A stretch of DNA of 64,000 bases from Tubiluchus corallicola (Eukaryota > Priapulida > Priapulimorpha > Priapulimorphida > Tubiluchidae): assembly GCA_030141605.1 (NCBI GenBank), contig JAQGDQ010000104.1, positions 472,001 through 536,000 on the forward strand, given 5' to 3'. Shown piece after piece: positions 1 to 63,200 of this stretch. A program made the position numbers and the translations under genes. The notes under the pieces were generated by a model. That model saw only the letters and a list, made by a program, of their open reading frames with translations. It ran no database searches and was not told the origin of the DNA. Within the stretch, counting starts at the first letter, position 1, and the number at the start of each line of letters is the position of its first letter.

Positions 1-839
1 AAAGCTAGAACTTGGAAATCGCAACTGCAATATATGCATGGCGTTTTGTTAGGTGCTAGGGGAAGGATAAAAGAGATGTGCAGTGAAAAGAGATGACATG
101 GCGGTAAAATAAGGGTGTAAGTAAGTAATGGGAGTAGAAGAGAAGAAAAAAGCTGACAATTATAAAAACAAATGAAGAAATGATTAAAATGCGATATGCA
201 CTTTATGCTACGCAGGACATTTTTAAAACTTCGTTCATTTATATTGCATAATTTATTACACACGGTCATTCATAATCATGCTGCAGCCGTTAAATTGTGA
301 AAGTGAATATTTTAAGTTCCTACAACTTTTTGCAAATACGAGATTTTTTCTCTGTGACGTAAGTGGCTTGTGTATAAACCACAAAAAAAGTCGTGAATTT
401 TGTAGGAAGAGATTTCTTATTTCATCATCACCACTCGTGATGCATTCCATGCAAAGATGAGTTATGCTGATGTAAGAAATTGTAAGGCTATGGCAGTCTC
501 TGTAAAAAACAGTTGGAGTGCACTGGTGCATAAAAGCTTCTTAGCTGGAATGACTCAAGGCCCCCTTTGAATTGCGGTGACCGGGCGTGTTCGCTTAGAC
601 GCAGGCATGCTGTCTGCGATTGTGCTTACGAAATCGGAGATGAACGTAGTTACCCGAACCACGTCTGCGTCGGAGCTTCATTTTCTCTGTCTGTTTACAT
701 TTTCGTGACCCTGAGATACATGAGGGTGTGTGCGCTGTTGTCGTTTTTTTGTGTAATTTAACGCCCAGGTGAATTTGTTTGATTAGTGAACGTTCAGTTT
801 TAGTGATGGTGTGAATTAATTTATCTCTTGCTTTGATTA
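1..839. other. Gene-free stretch with a GC-richer patch
   Basis: No coding exon could be supported here. Short open frames on both strands lack splice sites or recognisable protein. About 565-760 is richer in GC and CpG than its surroundings. It could be a promoter or non-coding first exon of the gene at 2,687, but no direct signal proves this. Confidence 0.4.
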
Positions 840-2640: not shown

Positions 2641-2686
2641 GGCTTGGTATCCATAAAAGAAGCCGTCAGTGCGGTCATTACTGAAA

Positions 2687-4033
2687 ATGGAGGTGATGAT
2701 ACGTGTTTTGCTTGTTGTGCCTCTGCTTGACATTATTTGTCTGCTGGCACAACCAATAAACTGGAATGAGTGTGGAAAGACTAAGGGGTGTTTTTTTAGC
2801 CCAAAAACCTGTAATTCCGAAACCTCCTGCAAATACCTACTCACCTATCAAGAGATTGGATCTCGCATCAGCTTTGAGATGAGTGGCATTGTTGATTTTC
2901 CATTACAAAGCACTTATGTTGCCGTTGCCTTCTCGGACGACAAACTAATGGACAAGGACAGTGTCATTGAATGTGTTCACAACATTAGTACTGGTAAAGT
3001 GAATGTATTTCCATCGTACGATACACTGAACAAAGAAAACAGTCGCATTAATATATCGCTGGTAGATGCAGGGCTTATTCTGCTGAACTCAGTTTACAGT
3101 AACAGCATTATCCGCTGCCGTTTCACTCGCGAGAAAGTAGTTGATCATGAGCTTATCTATGATCTTAACAAGGAATGGTATCTGCAAATGGCCAATGGCC
3201 TTGCATCATCATCAAATATAGGCATACATTTGCTTGACCCTTTGCCAGTTGTGTCAGATGACCGCGTCAGCGTTTTGGGTTTTGGAATTAGCGAAGCGAC
3301 AACTAGCTCTCGTGCAATGGCTGTCACACACGGTTGTCTGATGGTTATTGCTTGGGTATTCTTTGTGTCGCTTGGAACATTTACAGCACTATACTACAAG
3401 GAGGGCTGGGAAGAGAAAGCGCTTGACTTAGCAGTAAGACTTCAGGTTCACCGCAGATGTATGGAAATTGCTTGGACGTGTTCCCTTTGTGCAACCATTC
3501 TCATCATTATCAAAGTTTCTGGGTGGGTGACTATACAAGGCGATTCATTCTCTCACTCTGTTGTAGGCATAATTGCCAGCTGTTTGGGCTTTTTACAGCC
3601 ATTCATTGTCTGCCGGTGTCGGCCTGGTTCTGAAGATCACCCCTGGTTTAATTGGATACACAGGAGTATTGGTGCCATGGCTCATATTTTTGCTGTTACA
3701 GCCATCTTTCTAGCTTTTGGGTTCATGTACAATAGGAATGCGTTGCCTTTTTACATGTTTTACATCATGGGTGCTTATGTTGTATGGCAGTTGTTGAGTG
3801 AAATCGTCCGAGACACTCATGCATACTGCATCGCCAAGAAATGTAACAGATCAGCAAATATTACTTTGCAACCAGCGAACCAAGAAGCATTTACCGTAGC
3901 CGAAGATACGCCAAGATATTCAAAGGATTTTGGATTTCAGACACTTCTGCTGCTGTTCTACGCAATTGTTCTTCTTGCACTTACCATTGCCATCATTGTT
4001 CTACTTATTTTGAAGTGGGGAAAAACTTACTAG
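2687..4033 (+). CDS. DOMON / cytochrome b561 ferric-chelate reductase-like protein (FRRS1-like)
   Basis: Predicted membrane oxidoreductase of 448 aa passing electrons across a membrane through two b-type haems; the FRRS1 family reduces ferric iron. Seen: signal peptide (residues 1-22, hydrophobic, ending before QPINW), a DOMON-like ectodomain (about 40-190), then a b561 core with the four expected haem-ligand histidines at 215, 255, 290 and 325, one per helix, a fifth helix, and a sixth C-terminal helix just before the stop. I chose the ATG at 2,687 (context GAAAATGG); the open frame extends 18 bases upstream but begins with GTG. The CDS has no intron, although a splice acceptor lies at 2,640 in the 5' UTR. 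There is no reelin domain, unlike vertebrate FRRS1. The family call is firm; substrate and compartment are inferred. Confidence 0.9.
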   Translation: MEVMIRVLLVVPLLDIICLLAQPINWNECGKTKGCFFSPKTCNSETSCKYLLTYQEIGSRISFEMSGIVDFPLQSTYVAVAFSDDKLMDKDSVIECVHNISTGKVNVFPSYDTLNKENSRINISLVDAGLILLNSVYSNSIIRCRFTREKVVDHELIYDLNKEWYLQMANGLASSSNIGIHLLDPLPVVSDDRVSVLGFGISEATTSSRAMAVTHGCLMVIAWVFFVSLGTFTALYYKEGWEEKALDLAVRLQVHRRCMEIAWTCSLCATILIIIKVSGWVTIQGDSFSHSVVGIIASCLGFLQPFIVCRCRPGSEDHPWFNWIHRSIGAMAHIFAVTAIFLAFGFMYNRNALPFYMFYIMGAYVVWQLLSEIVRDTHAYCIAKKCNRSANITLQPANQEAFTVAEDTPRYSKDFGFQTLLLLFYAIVLLALTIAIIVLLILKWGKTY

Positions 4034-6239: not shown

Positions 6240-7893
6240 GAGAAAAAGTAAGTATAAGAAAGAGCAACAATTACTTAGGAGATGAGAAGAAAAAAAAAAC
6301 TTGCTAGCTTGCTTATTAGTCTTACAAGTTATGTATTACAGGTATATTCATTTAGTAAGAATTTTGTGTATTTTTTGGAAGCAGAAAATAAGCTACCTCC
6401 AAAGGTATCTTTTGGCAACGAGTTCCATAATTTAACTCCTCGTGATTTTAAGCTATTGAAACCATGTCGGGTAAAAAATCTCTCCACAAAATACTGTTCA
6501 TTAGAAGCAGCTCTTGTGGAGTAGGAATGTATATCAGAAACATTAGTGAAATATTCACTAAAAAGTTCGGGTAATAAACCAGCATTGAATTTATACATAA
6601 ATTTGAACAACTCAAGATTGTAAATATCTCTTACTTTTAAAATTTGTAATTTTGCGAACGATGGTGTAGCATGATCATATTTGCGAGCAAAAGTTATTAA
6701 TTTTACTATTTTGTTTTGTTGTGTCTGTATTAATTTTTGAATTGATGCAAAAGCCGTACCCCATGTTAAGATGGAATATTGTAAATAAGGGAAAACTAAC
6801 GAATTATATAGAAGTTTCAGAATATATTGGTCAACGTGGTGCCTTACTTTTAAAATTATTCCGGTAATTCGACTTAATTTGTATGTTATGTGTTTTATAT
6901 GTGGTTCCCATGTTAATTTATTATCAATGAGTAGGCCCAAGTATTTGATGTTGTCTGTTTCTTCAATTTTGTGTTTGTTTATTATAATATGAAATTTTGG
7001 ATTATTAGCATTGTTAATTTGCTTATTGTTGATTATCATAAATTTGGTTTTTTTGTAGTTAATTGATAGCTGGTTTGCCCTCATCCACAGGTCTATTTTT
7101 TTCATTTCGTCATTAACAGATTTTTGCAGATTATTTATATTGGAGTCAGACATGAACAAATTAGTGTCATCGGCAAATATTCGGGTTCGAAAGTTGCTGC
7201 ATGTGGGAAGATCGTTAATATAAATTAAGAATAGAAGAGGTCCTAAATTAGAGCCTTGTGGCACTCCACACGATATGTGTTTATAGTCTGATGATACATT
7301 GTTAATAGATATGAATTGTTTTCTGTTAGTTAGATATGACTGAATTAGTTGCAAAGGTAGACCTCTGATGCCATAATGGTTTAATTTGGCTATTAGTATA
7401 CTATGCTGTACGGTATCAAAAGCTTTTGATAAGTCTAAAAATATTCCGCAATTCAGTAATTTTTTGTCAGTATCTAGAGAGATCGTGTCTATTAATTCGG
7501 ATACAGCAAGGGCAGTTGAATAATTTTTTCTGAAACCAAACTGGTATTTACTTAGGATATTACTTTTCACAACAAACTGGTATAATCTCTTGTAAATTAG
7601 CCTCTCAAAAACTTTTGATACTGGTGATAAGAGAGATATTGGTCTGTAATTGCCAGGTTCATGTGGAGAGCCAGTTTTATATAAAGGAATAACTTTTGCT
7701 ATTTTTAATATATTTGGAAAAGTTCCAGCATTAACCGATTTATTAAACAGTAATGTGAGTATTGGTGAAATAATTTGACTTGCAGATTTAAAAAAAGATA
7801 TTGGTATATTTTGTGGTCCTGGTGATTTGTTTGAATTAAGTGTGTTTAAAAGTGTGCATGTTTCATTTTCAGTAATAGGATTAATGAAAAAAG
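6240..7893 (-). mobile_element. 5'-truncated non-LTR retrotransposon (LINE, jockey/CR1-like) with open reverse transcriptase
   Basis: An uninterrupted minus-strand frame runs from about 7,890 to the stop at 6,329 (over 510 codons). In order: fingers motif SPGPQNIPI, then PGNYRPISLL, YQFGFRKNYST, FLDLSKAFDTV, GVPQGSNLGPLLFLIYINDL, the catalytic FADD box (about 7,170), and a long thumb ending in LWNSLPK. The endonuclease and ORF1 are absent, so the copy is 5'-truncated, as usual for target-primed reverse transcription. The lack of stops in what remains suggests a fairly recent insertion. Listed as a mobile element, not a host gene. Confidence 0.93.
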
Positions 7894-8949
7894 AATTTCA
7901 GTTCACTTTGTCATTATGTGTCATATATATATATATATGTCATAGAAATACGTTCTTTTGTATACAGGAAACAGCTCAATAGCAGCTAAAAATATTTTTC
8001 ATCAAGGAATGCTATTGAGTAATGTTCAAAATGCAGTAATGCACAAAAAGCTATTAATTGTGTCTTGATTGGTGATGATGGCATAGGAAGTCGGGTGGTT
8101 TTACAAACTTGAGTGTGAAGTTGTGGAGTGTGCGACACTTGGAATTTGACATGTGTTTGCTGTACATGTGAAAGACTTAAAATGCACATGCCTAATTCCT
8201 GAGAGTTTGGCAAGTCTGTGCTCTGTGACATGGTGGTGTACTGCACAATACATAGATAAAATAGTTCTAAGCTTAATTGCAAGTAAAATAAAGACATTAT
8301 CAATAAGAGGATTTCTTGAAGTAGCAGGAGTAAACTGATTGTGCCGTCTATACCTTCAACAGCTGCGGTGGTAAAGTACTGGTAAAGAACTGATAATTTT
8401 AGTTCAGCTAAATCCACTTTAATCATTTCGTGACACTACGTGTGCCCTCTCTATGCCCAAACTTTGCCATATTCCGCCTCGTGGTACATGGTGCTGCTGC
8501 AATGACAAGGTTCTATTGGCACTAGAGCACATGGTGAGGCAATGCAGTGGAGGAGTACATAAGACGAAGCCAGAACTATCGAGTTGAGGTTTGCCTGTAT
8601 GGGAACAAGGAGGCAGTACATAGCACCGCAGTACACAGGGATGTAAAGCAAGTGCGAACATTCCACGTAGTATTTCATTTCGAAGACTGATGAATAATAA
8701 GTGTTCATTATGTAGCCCTGACTTGCAAATTTTAACAGCGAGTGAAAACAGTTGCTAAAAGAGGACACAAACTGCAAAAAAAATTGAAGAGGCTAACGAG
8801 CAGGTGTTGAAAAAACTGAATTGCGGTGTGAAAATTTTAACTTTTATCTGCAAAATTGGCTGGTGGCAGCAAGTTGTTTTACTTGCTGTTCATTTCTCTC
8901 TACTTTGACGCAAGGTGCTAGTCTGACGTGCCAGAATTAAAGGACAATC
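7894..8949. other. No confident gene; possible fossil coding block at 8,450-8,690
   Basis: A TA microsatellite lies at 7,926-7,938. The plus strand at about 8,545-8,685 has a short amino-acid-rich stretch (NAVEEYIRRSQNYRVEV) after two stops, without splice sites. It could be a relic of a transposon or gene. Nothing else is recognised. Confidence 0.3.
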
Positions 8950-10394: not shown

Positions 10395-30348
<19,954 letters not shown>

Positions 30349-31117: not shown

Positions 31118-34100
31118 TTATTCTGCTTGTGCGCACAGTTTCTCAGTCATCGTGTTGAAGACGCCGGTCAACAGTTTCTGGAAGTGTTCACAAGATGGAG
31201 CCACCAGGCTGCGAAGAATGCTCGACACTGCGTCCGAAAACACACTGGAACAAAAGTAAAAATCTTTGTACTGTAAAGCATTTGCTACTGTTGTCTCTAT
31301 TTGTGTGAAAAAGTATTTTTTATATAGATTTACACTCAGCAACAGCAAGTCGGAATTTGCCACTTAGTGACAGGGACTATTTAAGATACATCATTTGTGG
31401 TATGGCCTGAACCTGATAGGGCATCTTAGCCTCGTTTCCATGTATGTACCACGTCTCGAAGAGAGAAATGGTGGTGGTAGCATGCTGGAACTGTTCAGAA
31501 AATGTTTTCCAGCAGGGCCACAGTTAAGTTGTTAAGACAACTCAGTGACAAAAGACAGTTATGTAAAAAATAAACCTATTTCTATTTGATAAGTTAATTT
31601 TTTTTGCTTTTGCTGATGTTTTAAGGAAAATGTTCTTTTATTGCTCAAAAACATAAAGACATTAAAAATATAATACATTGCTCATAACTTAAAAACATTA
31701 AAGATATAAGACATTGCTCAAAAACATAAAAACATTAAAGATATAAAACCATTAAAGATATAAGACATTGCTCAAACATTAAAGATATAAGACATTGCGC
31801 AAAAAAAAATTAAAGCATTAAAGATATAAGACATTGCTTAAAAACAAAAACATTAAAGATATAAGACATTGCTTAAAACATAAAGACGTTAAAGATATAA
31901 GGCATGGCTCAAAACATAGAAACATTAAAGATATAAGATATGGCTCAAAATATAAAAACATTAAAGAATAAGACATTGCTCAAAACGTAGGAACAATAAA
32001 GATATAAGACATTGCTCAAAAAAAGAAACTTTAAAGATATAAGACATTATCTACTATATTTGAAAATACTTCCTAACTAGTTAATTTTTTTATCAATGTG
32101 AGTCTGTTAACTGTTAATGATTGGAGTTTATCGACTAGTAACAAAATCTAAACATTTGATTTAAACGTGATTAATAATCACACATATCTCTATAAACACC
32201 TCCAGATTATAGCTTAACAGATGTGCAACACAACGTTCCTAATAACCGTTGTAAATTATAGTTTGTAAATATTCCTTGTAAATTATTATAACTTAGGAAA
32301 CTCCATGCTGATTTGCAGCAATTTCGATGAAATCGATGGAATAATAATTAAAATGGCTTTTAAAAAGTGCATTAAACAAAAATGGTAAGAAATAGCTTTG
32401 AAATTAACCGGAAGATGTATTGTAAATCTGAGTGTTTGTGGCCATACCGATATAGAAATAATAGTAATAAATGTAATCAGAATTAATTATTTTTACCTTG
32501 GTCTTAGTTTAAACATATTTTTATTGAAAGTATGGCTTGAACAGACAAAATATCTTGACCAGATATCTTGATCAAATAACAGATATCTTGATTTTCATGA
32601 CTATCTTGAATTTTTCATCTTTCACCATTTTTCCAATTGTCTGGTTCACGAAGAATTCCTTTACACATTCAATGACATTGCCAAATTTTAAAGTTGTGCA
32701 CATGTTAACAATGTCTCTGTTATAATCGCTGGTCTGCTTACCTGCAAGAGGTCGTAGATAAAGGCTGGCCATTATTAAACCACTTGACAGCTATAAGCGT
32801 TGTTAGTTCATACTGGAGTCTCGCCATAGCAATTGACGTCACTGGTCCCTGAAACATTGAACGTAGATCGAAGTTTGCAGAAAGAATGGTGGACATAGGA
32901 TTGCTGACCCTGAATGTCTTTGTAATGCACTGGGAAGTATCTTTCCCTGAAAAACGAAATTGTTAGTAACTGTTGAGCACTGAGCTAATTAGTTATACTA
33001 GCAGATGGAGACTGTAGTTTCAATACAGTAGCAGGAAACAATGAAATAACACAAATTTAATTTTTACAAGTATGTCTTTATTAAACAGCATAGTTTATAT
33101 GTTGTGTAGCCTAGTGAAATTCGACATATACATACTCATACAATTGTAGTATTACTCATATAGTGTCATTCGAGCAGATATATATAGTATGCAAAAGTAT
33201 ATATATATATTCCAATAATTTAAAATAGTTTGTAGGCATTCTAAGTATAAAGTTCTAAATTTCTAAGTTTAAAGTACTACGTCATTAAACTTTTTTACTA
33301 TATTGCAGTAATTATTTTATTTATTTTTTATTTTTTTTATTTATTATTATTATCACATTCAGTACAATATAATGACATTAAGCACACAGTGACATCAAAA
33401 TTATTACATCATACTGTATTAAATTGTTATGTTTCATACACTATCGTTATCATAAAAGAATAATTGTACTGCAGTGGGCTAGAGAAGCAAAGGCTTGTAT
33501 AAGCCCACTATCATGTGAACCCGATAAAAAAAGAATGAATGAGTGAACAAAAAAAAGAACTGGGAGAAAGGTTAGATCACACAGGATGGGTAGAAGGATG
33601 TGTTAGTGGAAGTGGTAGGAAGAAAGATAATAGATTGCGCTATGTTGACATCAGCTCTAAAGATTTATCAATGATGCTTTGTTTTGAATAATCTGTACCA
33701 GGATTGTGGTATTTCTCTACACTGTACAACTGCAGTATATTAAGAAGTTATTATTATTATTATTATATTAGAATAAGGGCAACATGCACAGGACTAATGG
33801 TCGTATGTTGTCCTTGTATTTGACATTCTTCTGTTGTATCTTGATGTAATTCCAATACTGTCCATGTGTGTAAGACAAGAAATGGTTCTTATTCTTATTC
33901 TTACACATGTTACCCTGCCTGGCATCTAATAAGGGCTTAACAGGCTAATGTAGTTGCCATGGTTGCATCCTAAAGGGATCAATAACAAAACGATCGCCCA
34001 ATCAGTTTTGTCATTGACGGTAAAATACTTTTGGCAAGTTTGGTTGTCTGTTAAATTTCAAAAGTCAATTCAATTCTACAAAACTTAACAAATGATTATC

Positions 34101-36712
34101 ATCATCATCTTGATCAACATTGTCGTTATTAGTATCAGCATTTTTTATAATCATTACTGTAAAATTGCAGCAGATAAATGGTTAATAATGAATATTGTGA
34201 TTGAAGCCACTAATAGAATATCCACTAAAACTAATGCACGGATATTTGATAGGTGTGAACTATGCTTTACCAGCTAAAGTTCACAGTTCCCCACGCACAA
34301 ATAATTAGTTCGTGAAGTGGGTTAGAGTTAGAGCATTGAAATTGTGTGGGAAATTGTAAAATCCTTGCCCTTTACGTTTTCTCAGATTTAGCAAACTAAT
34401 ACTGACATATCTTTTCCAATAACCAAATAACACTTTTTTAAAATCAGGGCTTTCTAAATCAATAGATCAATCAATCAATCAATTTATTTCACTCCAGCAA
34501 TACATATATAATACATCAACATACAATATTATTGAAACAAAAAGAAACAGTATAGGTAAAAAAACGTTGATGAAGTCAAATTAACTAAATAAAAGAGTTG
34601 CTGTATGACACCTTGAAAGCTTGGCTTGTTAAGGTGGCACAAATGAGTGAATGAAAGAATGGTTAAGGTTTGTAGACATGATGGAATGGAAAAAAATAGT
34701 AAGATTAGGGATAGGAAGAAGGAAAAGAAGAGAAGAAACGACTACAGTGTATGTTTAATTTACATAGAGGTATATAAAATAGCATTATAATTGATTAGAG
34801 GCCAAATATTGCGACTGCATGAGACATGGAACCATTAAAATTGTATTATGAGTATGTATTAAAAATGGTCCTTTTCAAGTACTTTTTGAAACTATAAATA
34901 GTTTTGTGTATTTTTACTTGGGTACTTTATTCCAGTTATTGGGGGCTGTGAATTTAATAAAGTGCCTGGCACTATTAGTACGACAGCAAGGGATATGATA
35001 TTCGTTGAACCTTGTAAAGTAATGTTTAGGATTTGCTGTAATACTCGCACCTTTCCAATATGCTAGTTATTTGTTTTATTGATTTTAAATTTTGGAACTT
35101 TTGGGGAATGTGACAGTTTGTGAAGAAGAAGTGAGTAGTGTACATTTATTTTATTCAGCTAATTCAATAAACTTACATCCCTTGGCAGTTGAAATTGCAG
35201 TCCACGACTGCTCGTTTTTGCAGATGCTTTGCAGTAGTTCTGACACCAAACCCACGTAGCGCTTTGCGTCGGATACTGTCGCATTTCCGATCATTGGCAG
35301 GAAAGTTGCAGGCAGAATTTTTTGCAGTGATTGCAGCAGCTGTGCGTTGAGGATAGCGATGGGGAAGATTATTGTGTCATCGCAGTTCTCGGCTTTAGTC
35401 AAATTGTCAATGCATCGTGGTGCAGATTCCGGTAGATCCCTGTATTAAAGGAAAACAGTGTGGGCAAGGAAATAAGGGGGAGAGCTGGTACCGAATTAAA
35501 GTTTGCCCACAATTATTAAGCCTGTTAGCTTTTACAATAAAAAAATCAAACAACACAATCATTAACATGTCATGAAGAATTATATTATAATAACTATACT
35601 AGCAGGTACAATCACAGAATCAAATAACATAATTATTATCAATACTGAAATACCACCATACTAAAACACAGTGGAACAATTAACCTGGCTAGCCCACAGG
35701 TCTAAATGCTCAACGTAGACCTGTCTTACACAGCTTAAATACAGAAAACTAGAACACTATTAATGTAAAAGCCTAAAAGGTCACTGTATTTAAACACTTT
35801 CACTTCCTTATGTTTTAAGTAGTGGACTGAAACATCAAAATCAAATACCTCATTTCTAGTAGTTGACCATTAGCCTGGTTAACTGCTTTTTGGAAGGGCA
35901 GTTTTGCCGTTGTTGTTAAATCTGACATTCTTCTGTGTGGACAACAACTCTTATTTGTTATTGTGCATTTAGACTAGCAAGTTTTCTCTCTGACAGCAAA
36001 CTTGCAAGTGTGAACTGCCTTGTGAGTTACTGTTGACAAGTTAAACTTGCTAATGTGAACTGCCTTGTGAGTTACTGTTGACACGTTAAACTTGCAAGTG
36101 TGAACTGCCTTGTGAGTTACTGTTGACAAGTTAAACTTGCAAGTGTGAACTGCCTTAAGAGTTACTGTTGACAAGTTAAACTTGCAAGTGTGAACTGCCT
36201 AGTGAGTTACTGTTGACAAGTTATTACAAACTGTTCCAATAGTTGCTACGAGTTGATTTCCTGTGAGTTACTGTCTAATGTGAGTGCTTAGGCAACTTAC
36301 TCTCACCACTTCTTGCATCGAGTAAAGAAGTGAGTGTCAGCTAGCACTTACTGTCAGAAAGTAACTCGCAGAAATTTTTGATTTCCAGTCTGAACGCGCT
36401 TGCGAGTGACCACGCCAGTAGTTTTAACCATTAAGCCATTACTTACATACAAATGTTGCCCCATTTACGTTTGAAGAAATTGGCAAAACCTTCGGGTGAT
36501 TTAGTTATGGCCTGGTCGCTCTTGAAGTCCTCGCGCAATGTCGTCCATTGTCCATAGAAGTCACTACACACTTTGTCCATGTTATGAGTTATATCCTTCA
36601 TGAACGTCTGCCACCAATAGTCGCACCTCGTCATGCTGCTAGAATACGAGGTCAGGCAGCAGCAAACTAAAAAAACATGGAAGATATGAAATAAACCGAG
36701 TCTAATCATCAT
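31118..36712 (-). CDS. Small secreted cysteine-rich protein of unknown family, four exons
   Basis: I do not recognise this protein. Exons on the minus strand: 36712-36447, 35439-35177, 32946-32742, 31244-31118. Phases 2, 1 and 2 agree at all three junctions, introns are GT-AG, and the joined frame gives 286 aa. An in-frame TAA immediately precedes the ATG, fixing the start. Seen: hydrophobic signal peptide (about 1-22), then a mature chain with ten cysteines (for example RCDYW, VCSDFY, ICMDL, RCIDN, NCDD, ICKN, QCITK, SCR, SCEHF, LCAQ), predicted mostly helical, with two N-glycosylation sites (NLT, NAT) and no membrane segment or ER-retention end. It lies between RECQL (convergent) and GBA (same strand). 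Probable extracellular or luminal protein; function unknown. Confidence 0.8.
31640..32050. repeat. Minisatellite, approximately 36-bp unit
   Basis: About a dozen imperfect copies of CATTAAAGATATAAGACATT plus an A-rich spacer (GCTCAAAAACATAAAAA). It lies in the last intron of the secreted-protein gene. Confidence 0.8.
33290..34090. other. AT-rich intron sequence with simple repeats
   Basis: T/A-rich tract at 33,310-33,355 and an ATT microsatellite at about 33,748-33,768, with no exon. The tract could be a LINE 3' tail, but I see no linked coding remnant. Confidence 0.35.
34460..35060 (-). mobile_element. LINE 3'-terminal fragment with (TCAA)n tail
   Basis: Minus strand from about 35,050 reads as the LINE C-terminus: HYFTRFNEYHIPCCRTN, then RHFIKFTAPNNWN. 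An untranslated part follows and ends in a GATT/ATCA tetranucleotide run at 34,462-34,482. It lies in an intron of the secreted-protein gene, same strand. Confidence 0.65.
35930..36415. mobile_element. MITE expanded by an internal 45-bp tandem array
   Basis: Five copies of a 45-bp unit (AACTGCCTTGTGAGTTACTG, then TTGACAAGTT...) span about 36,005-36,225. The flanks carry TCTCTCTGACAG (left) and, further right, CTGTCAGAAAGTAACTCGC and CAGTCTGAACGCG. The unit resembles the interior of the MITE at 38,223-38,444. First intron of the secreted-protein gene, ending about 30 bases after exon 1. Confidence 0.55.
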
Positions 36713-57205: not shown

Positions 57206-60200
57206 CTACGAGTAAGAGAAGTTGATATTACGTCTCAGTGGTCTTCTGTCGCTGTTGCCGGACTTAAAGTCACTTCCAGATCTCATTTCGTTCATCAGCC
57301 TCCTGACGTCTGCTATCTCACGCCGTGTACCCATTACGAGTTTGCTAAAAACATAAGAAAAGAAGTGTTAATGTTCAGTGTTAGTGTTAGTTTTAGAGTT
57401 AATAACAATTCAACGAATCTAAACTCAGTGAATAAAAAAACATGAATTTACTTAATATTCCGAAGCTCTTCAATGAGTTTGTTAATTGAAGGCGTTTCGT
57501 CTCTAGCCAAAGAAAATGCCGGCACTGCACTAGGCACAGAGTCGTCTTTAAATTTAGAAAGTCTGTCTACTTCCGCCATCTTTACAGGCAGAGGCTCCCA
57601 GATAGTATCAATGGCTTCGCACAGCTGAGAGTCTGAAACATCATTAAATCTGGCTTCCTCGTCGTTTATATCTGAAAAGCACGAAGATAATTAGCACCTA
57701 AACAGCCTTGTCTGAGTCAACCAATTTAACCAAAAATTGTGCAATTTTTGAATGATACCTCCAGTGATATACCTCAAGGAAACCATATAAACGAGAACAA
57801 AATTAAAATAATGGGCAGCACACACTTAAGCAAAGACATGGCTTTTATTCAGATGCAATATCTGCAACGTTTCGACACAGTTAAGGTCGTGTTCACGCAA
57901 CAATCCATTATGGCTGTTATTTTTATTTTAAGAATTTGTTTTCCCCATCATCAATCAGTTTTTCATAAAAACAAAATTCTAGATTGGGCGAAATTTTCAC
58001 TTATCATCCTTTGTTTTTCATTCAGTTGCTTAAACAACTCTGCATACGTCATTCAGAACGAAGAGGCACAACAGCAAAATTGCATCAAAGTTTATTACAT
58101 GTACAACTATTCATCCATGACGGCCTGTCTGGTATTTAACTTAAGCTGTTGATCTTCAACAAGTGAGAAAAATGATTTTCTGCATAACTTTTGAAATCAA
58201 TAATCCTAGAATGGATTAATGGCTGATAGCAGCGGGTGATAAAACAACCTGATGGACTGAAGAGCTAGATTAGCCAACCCCAGCCTCGATGCCATTCTGC
58301 TGTTCTGGTGAAAACATGTAAATTGTTAAATGTTCTTTCGCATGTAAGCAGACCCTCAGGCTTCATATTGCAGGTGTTTCAAAATTGCATTAAAACATAT
58401 CAGTGCATGTCTCATTAGAAATATTTTAAAAAGTTTATTTACCGCTGTCTATATTTTCAGCAATGATGTTCACATCACCTGTCACTCCAATTGAGAGTTC
58501 CTTACCAACATCATCTTCCAGTAGCTCGTGCTTCAACGGAGAAGTGCACTGCCTACAATCTACCACTTCTAGAGGAAACCCAGATGATTTACTTAATTGG
58601 TTTATGGAGACAACATCATCTTCCAGTAACTCGTGCTTCACTGGAGAAGTGCACTGCCTACAATCTACCACTTCTAGAGGAAACACAGATGATTTACTTA
58701 ATTGGTTTATGGAGACAACATTATCTTCCAGCAGCTCGTGCTTCACTGGAGAAGTGCACTGCCTACAATCTACCACTTCTAGAGGAAACCCAGATGATTT
58801 ACTTAATTGGTTTATGGAGACAGTGTCGTTGACATCTCTGCCATCTCTAACTTCTGGAAGTAATGTTGGCAATACACATGCAGCTTCAGGCTGAGATGCT
58901 ACTTGTTCAACATCTGGGTGGCTAATCATCATTGAAACCTGATCATTGAATTTTGCCTCAGTGCTTATGAATGGTACGGATGAATATTGCCCTAAATGGT
59001 CAGTAAGCTGATGGCATACTTCAATATTCTGTGGGGTTACATCCATCATTGGTGACTCCTGCTTTTTAATATCAACCTCCATTTCCATTTCTTCCACACC
59101 AACAATTTGCTGCATTTGAACGTCTGAATGGAGACACTTGATTATGGACAATGATTCAAGATCCATGTCAGAAACGTCTTGCAAAGTTTTCGTTGGTGTG
59201 GCTTCTGCATGAATTTGTGCGACAGTGACAATTGTGTGTGGTTCTGCTTGCACATCAGAAATTGCTGACTGTTGTGCCGCATTAGGATAGAATGGGGGCA
59301 TCAGTTTATCAGGTGTGTTTGGCGGGGTCGGCCCACCTGATGTAGGACTGTTAAGTGGCGCATCGCCCAGTGAGACCACATGGTCCTCAGTGAGTTGATA
59401 GTCCATATCAGTGGCATCTGGTGACCGAACTTGGTCAATCAAGGGCATATTAGCATCTGCATGATATCCCAGATGGATTTGTGAGTAACTCACGGGTGAA
59501 TTTGCATACGGCACACTGTGTATTGTTGTATCAGTATGTTGTGATTTAACTGCAAGGACAGAAGATTGTGGGAGTAGCTCTGTGATATCTTCTTGAGCAT
59601 TTGCTGCATTGATATGTACTTGATCACCACCATCTTGCTCATCCATTTTGACAATTTCTTTTCGTGGAAAACACGCTACACTGGCGATACAGTCTCGCTC
59701 AGAATTGTGGTCATTCAGGTGACTGACTTCTAACGGACACTGTGTAGAGTTCACGGCTGCTTCTTTGCCAGTGTATGGTAATTTAAAATTTTCGATGTTC
59801 TGGGACATTTGTTGTTTGCTGGGTTCTCTATTGCTACAGACTAACCCATTCTGCGTTACCTGACTACATGTTACCAGCGCCTGCATGTTAACTTGAGCTG
59901 CCAAATGCTGTTTGTAATTATTATCCAATAAGTGTTCGATGTTACTTATGTTTTGAGATATATCAACAGTTTTCAATTGTAAACATTGTTCATTATGCTC
60001 TTCTTTGCCATTGAGTGAACCATTCTGTGCATTAACTGTATCGATAACATGTGCATCTATGTTATCGGGAATTCCTGAAAGCCGCTTATTATTGTTGTCA
60101 AATTTTTGTGTTTGTATTGGACCACAGACATTCTGAGAAGGAACAGTGCCCACAGATTGACAGATTTGAGACTGCAACAAAGAGTCAAACAACACTTTAT

Positions 60201-63200
60201 CACTTGGTCCCTGACTGGAAACATTTCCTGTTAATGACTTGTTGCCAGACACATTATCATTATCAATGTTTGTGGTTTCTGTGAGTGAGACGTTTGGCAA
60301 TGTGGTGACAATGTATTCCTCAGCATTAATATCAGTATTACTAACATTTTTGTCTTGGTAATACGTTTCGCAACCTCGTGGATTTCCGAGACGCTGTGAT
60401 TCGTTTCCGCTACCTGGTGTGATATCCGGTTGAGGAGGGTCACTAATCATTTCATCATTGGAAAGGGGTGAATACGAAGGGGTGGAGCCCATAGAGTGTA
60501 AATCACTATTTTCTGCCACGTCAGCATAAGCACAAGGTGAAACAAAAGCACCACCCACTTTTTGAGAAGATGGTGAGTTTGGTAACACAAAGCATGGTGT
60601 ATGAACAGCACTGGTGTCATTTGGTTTTTCTCGAAGATTGGAAGAACTTGCATTTATCAAATTAGCACCTTCTTCTAAAGTGCAAGCCTTGGATGCAATA
60701 TCTGTCAAGACTGCAGCACAACTCCTATCAATTTCCAATGTGAACAATTCATGTTCTTCCAAAGTCTGCTTCTGGTGCTTGTTGGCAGAACATTCGCTTT
60801 CAATGGTAATTTCTCTACGGTCATGCACCTCTTCAGCGATTTCACTTGGTTCACTTGAGATCTTTTCAACCACTGAATTGCTTGCATGTCCACTTCCCAG
60901 AATTTCGACTTTCTTTACTTTTTGATCAGTCTTATGATCATCATGTTCAGTTGCTTTCTTTCTTTTTCCAAAAGTAGGCAAAAACTTTCCAGTAACCTGC
61001 AACACCAATTTTAAAAACATAAACAATGTTAACACTTGCAACAGTCACACTGCAGTTCCTGTGCTATCAATTTGATTTTGCCATAGAATCTCGCAAGGAG
61101 TACTCCTGTTAAACCTAGCAGCTTGAGACAACACATTGTTACAGGCATACTGAAAAGCTGCTAAAATTTAATGATGTTGACTAATGTTGCTTTACGATAT
61201 TATGTAAATGAGATAAATACAACAAATACAATGATGAGCTTATGGAACAGATGACCATTAAGATGAAAACAGTTAATCAGAGAACAGTTAGTTAGCTCTT
61301 CTTGTAAATAATAATCTTTGCTGAATTGCAAGCATAGCAATTTGCACACACCTGTATTTAAAAGCCAAATTTTCATACCTGTGAGCAAGGCAGCTGAATC
61401 ACAGGTTGTTCTTTGTCTTCGATTTTGGATGATTCACTAAAAATACTTGAAAATTTGAGTAAATTAGGTAAAACGGTGATTCTAGAAACTTATTATAAAT
61501 CTAATTCTATTAGGATTGGAAATCACATAAACAAGTTGAACTAATATGATGTGACAACATGCCTATTTCAAGTCGTTTTAGAAGTCTCCTACATTTCAGG
61601 TGTAAGTCATCACTCACTCTACCTCCAGAATAACCACTCCCTCTGCCTCCAGAATCACCACTCACTCTACTTCTAGAATCACCCTCCCTCTACTTGCAGA
61701 ATCACTCTACTCCAGAACTACCACTCATACTACCTCCAGGATCACCACTCACTCTACTCCAGGAACTACCATTCATACTACCTCCAGAATGACTACTTCC
61801 TCTACTCCAGAACTACCACTCACTCTATGCCAGAATTACCACTCACCTTACATCCAGGATCACCACTCATTCTACCTCCAAAATACCTCCAGGATGACCA
61901 CTCACTCTATGCCAGAATTACCACTCACCTTACGTCCAGGATCGCCACTCACTCTACCTCTAGAATACCTCCAGAATCACCACTCACGCTATGCCAGAAT
62001 TACCACTCACCTTACGTCCAGGATCACCACTCACTCTACCTCCAGAATCACCACCCACACTACCTCTAGAATCACTGTGACAAAAATGTCACTCACGATA
62101 TTTTAAAATGGTGAAAATTCATCATACGGTGCAGACTTTGCAGTTTTGTCACCACTCCATAAATATTTTACAAAATCACAAGATAATAATCTAACTGCAA
62201 CAAAAGTTCCGTCATGTTTAAAACTTGTACCAGTTATGATACATGTATGTATGTACCAGGCATATATTTATTAGGCTGGTTCATATATACCTCTTGTCAT
62301 TTACACTACAATTTTTTAACTTCTTCTGGAGTTTCCTTTCTTCACTTCCTTCTAGTTTTGATCCATCATGATTTGAAGGTATTGGCTCTTTGCGTTTTTT
62401 CCCGCCTGATATAAAAAAACAACACGTAACAAAACAGTGACTGCCTCCTTTTTCCCAAAATTGATCAACTCGCAAGGTTTTTCGTCATTGTCAAGAACGA
62501 ACCAAAAACTAAAGGTAATTGCAGCCAGCATATTACTGAGCACTGAATTCAGCTATTGTAGGATACGATACATGCATAATTACAAAAAAAGATTATGATA
62601 ATAAAAGGACAATAAAGATTAATCATAATTATTACAAACAAATAATAATTATTTAAGATGATAATGAATGCACGTCTGCTCAATGGTCTGCTTGAGCAGC
62701 AGAATGATGATGCCATTTCATCGGTTTTTAATCATTTATTACTTCATAAATCTTGCTATTATTGGGAGGGATTTCTAATGGTAATATATATGCTATGGCA
62801 TGAAAAGTCAGTAGATTCTATTACGAAATTTTGATGAGTAGATTTACATTAATACACGTTTTGTTGTGAACATTTATCAAGTTCATTTCTTTGATGATGC
62901 CCAGTGCACAGCAAAGAAAAATTTACTATAAAATATTGATTAATAGTGTAATGACGGCAAAATGCCATTTGTTTCCACCTCCACCCCTGCATGGTTCAGT
63001 CCATTCCAAAGCCATTGCATACCGGTATCTTATAAATACCATGAGATGTCATGGTTTTGGCGGTCCATAGTGTTTTACCATCTCAGCAGTCGCCACTTGT
63101 TCCACTAGCATGGAGGACACAAGGAGAGCAACCTGACAGTTATCAAATAAATTTTGCTGTTCTACACGCGTTTACATAACAATTTTCTGTCTAATGAAAT

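Follow-up and report, generated by a model that had tools for sequence, protein, structure and literature searches.

A pair of paralogues in Tubiluchus corallicola predicted to encode ten-cysteine secreted proteins outside the families searched

In a stretch of 64,000 nucleotides from Tubiluchus corallicola, here called the window, four minus-strand open frames between positions 31118 and 36712 join into a protein of 286 residues, and a paralogue of this protein is encoded ~36 kb away on the same contig, just outside the window. Our main reading, to which we assign a probability of about 0.55, is that these frames form a genuine protein-coding gene, that it and its paralogue probably arose by local duplication, and that the product would be secreted or luminal and N-glycosylated, with a mass of ~29 kDa and five intramolecular disulphides. 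This reading was drawn from DNA sequence and comparisons of predicted proteins.

To build the gene model, we listed the GT or GC donors and the AG acceptors near the ends of the four open frames and joined every combination. This splice-site enumeration recovered the in-phase four-exon join of the preliminary description, with all introns of the GT-AG type. Exon 1 (36447..36712, minus strand, like all that follow) contains an ATG-ATG start, the signal-peptide-like residues 1 to ~25 and Cys30, Cys49 and Cys88, and ends in phase 2. Exon 2 (35177..35439) encodes Cys98, Cys108 and Cys162 together with sequons at N101 and N141 and ends in phase 1, and exon 3 (32742..32946) encodes Cys183 and Cys244 as well as the most strongly conserved block of the protein, VKWFN-x-GQPLS, and ends in phase 2. 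Exon 4 (31118..31244) carries Cys263, Cys282 and the TAA stop. Intron 1 (35440..36446), intron 2 (32947..35176) and intron 3 (31245..32741) have strong sites throughout, with donors GTAAGTA, GTAAGTT and GTAAGCA and acceptors TTAATACAG, GTTTTTCAG and TTGTTCCAG. An alternative AG six bases downstream at exon 3 yields a 284-residue variant, and joins of 289 and 291 residues were set aside because their GC-type donor (GCAGGTA) and their acceptor were both poorer. An in-frame stop just ahead of the ATG had also been claimed and was found as a TAA codon; since it directly precedes ATG-ATG, the open frame begins at 36712. None of the four exons has a frame break. Two of the introns contain tandem repeats, with five copies of a 45-base unit (93% alike) at 35998-36223 in intron 1 and 11 copies of a 36-base unit at 31640-32048 in intron 3.

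The protein begins with MMIRLGLFHIFHVFLVCCCLTSYSSS, which reads by inspection as a signal peptide, in agreement with the preliminary description. Cleavage would occur after about residue 24-26 and leave a mature protein of ~29 kDa without glycans. The ten mature-chain cysteines and two N-glycosylation sites reported before were both counted in the 286-residue product: the cysteines lie at positions 30, 49, 88, 98, 108, 162, 183, 244, 263 and 282, which gives the framework C-18-C-38-C-9-C-9-C-53-C-20-C-60-C-18-C-18-C, and the sequons are N101-L-T and N141-A-T. The chain ends straight after the last cysteine and has no tail. AlphaFold models of exons 2 and 3, each alone, consisted mainly of helix, but their mean pLDDT values of 52 and 45 were too low to support a search for similar folds; these low-confidence models did not confirm the all-helical pattern of the preliminary description, but suggest that the fold may be rich in helix.

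We searched the genome from which the window comes (343.5 Mb in 2344 contigs) and recovered the gene itself as well as three exon-wise matches on contig C2085 at 461989-464210. From the contig DNA, we built a paralogue with minus-strand exons at 465473-465239, 464202-463949, 463211-462992 and 462109-461827. The first of these opens at a phase-1 acceptor, and a candidate exon farther upstream, near 467266, which reads MKNISLVLIAT followed by a single base and has a good donor in the right phase, would complete a signal-peptide-like start, MKNISLVLIATAALFSGSLA. With this putative exon added, the paralogue would have one more intron and 341 residues, and it would span C2085:461827-467266, or about -10173 to -4734 in window coordinates.

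The two proteins share 90 of 257 aligned residues (35%), and their alignment scores 371, whereas shuffled sequences average 7.9 (sd 4.6). The ten mature cysteines all coincide (10/10), as do the sequon at 141, five tryptophans (W33, W84, W168, W177 and W232) and three introns, which lie at homologous codons in phases 2, 1 and 2. No invariant histidine was found in the columns conserved between the two paralogues. Differences between the coding sequences fall 115/106/158 on the three codon positions and thus fit selection at the protein level, and a blastn comparison of the two gene regions yielded nothing long: its best match was 35 bases, and most others were near chance. As many residues, the ten cysteines, a sequon and the intron positions and phases are common to both, the gene and its paralogue are, on this comparison of sequences, a real, selected two-gene family. 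The preliminary inference of a secreted or luminal protein with five disulphides is well supported, because the ten cysteines are invariant across diverged paralogues, both N-termini are signal-peptide-like and one sequon is shared.

The paralogue differs from the 286-residue protein in the extra intron, predicted within its signal peptide, in its longer loops and in a basic C-terminal tail of 51 residues (pI 11.7, compared with 4.6 for the paralogue core) that contains several dibasic sites. A rough, exon-wise search of the genome with the paralogue and an exon 3 consensus found no third family member. Weak matches on C11, C1056, C2250 and C197 (E 3.6-8.3) lie inside long open frames and were not counted as relatives. 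C11:41443-41703 (L011) lies on a 52-kb contig with an intronless, bacterial- or phage-like frame of 363 residues, possibly an assembly contaminant. Two long plus-strand exons adjoining the paralogue (L010, 4581-5438 and 7194-7871) are possibly FANCB-like, but no match in Pfam or the PDB supported this.

Within the window, RECQL (DEAD-box and RecQ1 matches) flanks the gene on one side, on the plus strand and in convergent orientation; GBA (GH30), with exons at about 41.3-51.6 kb, lies on the other side, directly upstream and on the same strand as the gene. The gene had been described as sitting alone between RECQL and GBA: both flanking genes are supported, but a sister gene lies outside the window. 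A full-length 5S rRNA-like copy (23812-23930, minus strand, 104.5 bits) is found inside the RECQL region and differs by substitutions from the best copies in the genome. A search of the genome for 5S listed 47 copies with scores, along with 12,979 candidates from a rough first look, so that elements resembling or derived from 5S may be numerous. Elsewhere in the window are a minus-strand open reverse transcriptase frame of 522 residues at 6332-7897 (RVT_1, 2.6e-35), a LINE-like remnant or copy; a plus-strand single-exon frame of 458 residues at 2657-4030 that contains a DOMON domain as well as several hydrophobic segments and resembles a ferric-chelate reductase, by inspection of the FRRS1 type; and a minus-strand open frame of 869 residues at 58438-61044 without a clear family, near whose end lie three tandem copies of a ~33-residue unit, SINQLSKSSGFPLEVVDCRQCTSPVKHELLEDD.

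The earlier statement that no family could be named for the protein held for Pfam, the PDB and viral and prokaryotic DNA: neither paralogue had a Pfam-A match, no PDB entry matched by sequence or profile, and collections of viral and prokaryotic contigs contained no relatives of the pair. The order of the cysteines is reminiscent of that of the 27-kDa haemolymph glycoprotein of insects (DUF1397, PF07165) and of nematode DUF19 (PF01579, T20D4.11-like), a cysteine-rich secreted domain. DUF1397 proteins are, like the 286-residue protein, secreted, cysteine-rich and of similar size, with a C-8..9-C-9..10-C block; the representative that we compared, a sequence checked against Pfam, which assigns it to DUF1397 at 2.6e-74, has 12 cysteines, compared with the ten found here, and its middle cysteines follow an order of about C-8-C-10-C-23-C-16-C. 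Among the closest described proteins is the cysteine-rich atrial secretory protein (CRASP) from the snail Achatina achatina. It is a ten-cysteine, N-glycosylated, secreted, all-alpha protein without a known family, in which the pairing of five disulphides was measured (PMC4596865). Like CRASP, the 286-residue protein is predicted to be secreted and, from its sequons, N-glycosylated, has exactly ten mature cysteines and matches none of the families searched, and the middle cysteines of the two follow a similar order, C-9-C-6-C-28-C-11-C in CRASP and C-9-C-9-C-53-C-20-C here. CRASP is smaller, with 158 mature residues against ~262, and its spacings are much shorter; its helicity and disulphides were measured, whereas those of the 286-residue protein are predicted.

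These resemblances would be explained if the protein belonged to a known family of helical, cysteine-rich secreted proteins, whether DUF1397, DUF19 or CRASP, and had evolved too fast for its kinship to be recognised from sequence. We consider this unlikely. In its favour, the middle cysteines have a similar order and roughly similar spacings in CRASP and in the DUF1397 representative, but PF07165 matched the proteins neither at its 25.7-bit cut-off nor anywhere up to E = 10, PF01579 matched neither paralogue, and the DUF1397 and DUF19 models matched no exon of the genome in searches run without a positive control. Kinship with DUF1397 was unsupported by hhalign (E 0.45; score 12.7 against a mean of 13.6 for shuffles with fixed cysteines) and by pairwise scores (p 0.12-0.29), and DUF19, with no model match in the proteins or the genome, was likewise unsupported as the family. 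For CRASP, whose mature sequence was assembled from peptides tabulated in the paper and includes 16 unknown residues, 37 of 120 cysteine-fixed shuffles scored equally high and pairwise p values were 0.80 and 0.44. Because the similarity to CRASP does not exceed chance, its disulphide order (I-II, III-VI, IV-V, VII-X, VIII-IX) could be transferred to the 286-residue protein purely by analogy.

The paralogue, which retains the ten cysteines, the reading frame and the intron phases, speaks against a decayed pseudogene or a fortuitous joining of open frames, as do exons free of frame breaks; we strongly disfavour such an origin, even though no canonical poly-A signal was found in the 700 bases past the stop codon. 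A role as a lysosomal partner of glucocerebrosidase would fit the position of GBA and a secreted or luminal product. Gene order rarely tracks function in animals, and Pfam revealed no saposin similarity; the paralogue is far from GBA, so we see no functional link between GBA and the gene, and regard such a partnership as very improbable. It is also improbable, to a lesser degree, that the pair encodes secreted signalling molecules of a helical cytokine- or hormone-like kind, with the tail of the paralogue serving in matrix retention or as a cleavable peptide. Secretion, N-glycosylation, C-termini that differ between the two products and dibasic sites in one tail would suit that role, but neither Pfam nor the PDB gave a match to a hormone or cytokine family and the 286-residue protein is tailless.

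We favor instead the reading of two paralogous secreted or luminal proteins stapled by disulphides. The ten invariant cysteines, the conserved tryptophans and the lack of an invariant histidine point to a stable binding scaffold rather than to catalysis; with less confidence, we suggest that the 286-residue protein may be an extracellular binding or carrier protein of a body fluid or of the secretory lumen, and not an enzyme. The basic tail of the paralogue could anchor it to anionic surfaces or matrix, and the 286-residue protein would be soluble.

Among invertebrates, secreted proteins that are rich in cysteine and restricted to a lineage are common and rarely understood, and the 286-residue protein looks like one more of them, half of a mildly interesting orphan pair whose orthologues may well be labelled "uncharacterized" in animal databases. 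We tentatively raise the possibility, which we hold at somewhat less than even odds, that the pair represents an undescribed animal family whose secreted, disulphide-stapled members have a new cysteine framework and possibly a new fold, with soluble and basic-tailed forms encoded near each other. Given the clean gene structure, the fixed cysteine framework and the natural experiment of a protein with and without a tail, its fold and role are directly testable. If animal databases hold no relatives, the pair would constitute a new family, perhaps with a new disulphide fold; otherwise, it would be a routine gain in annotation.
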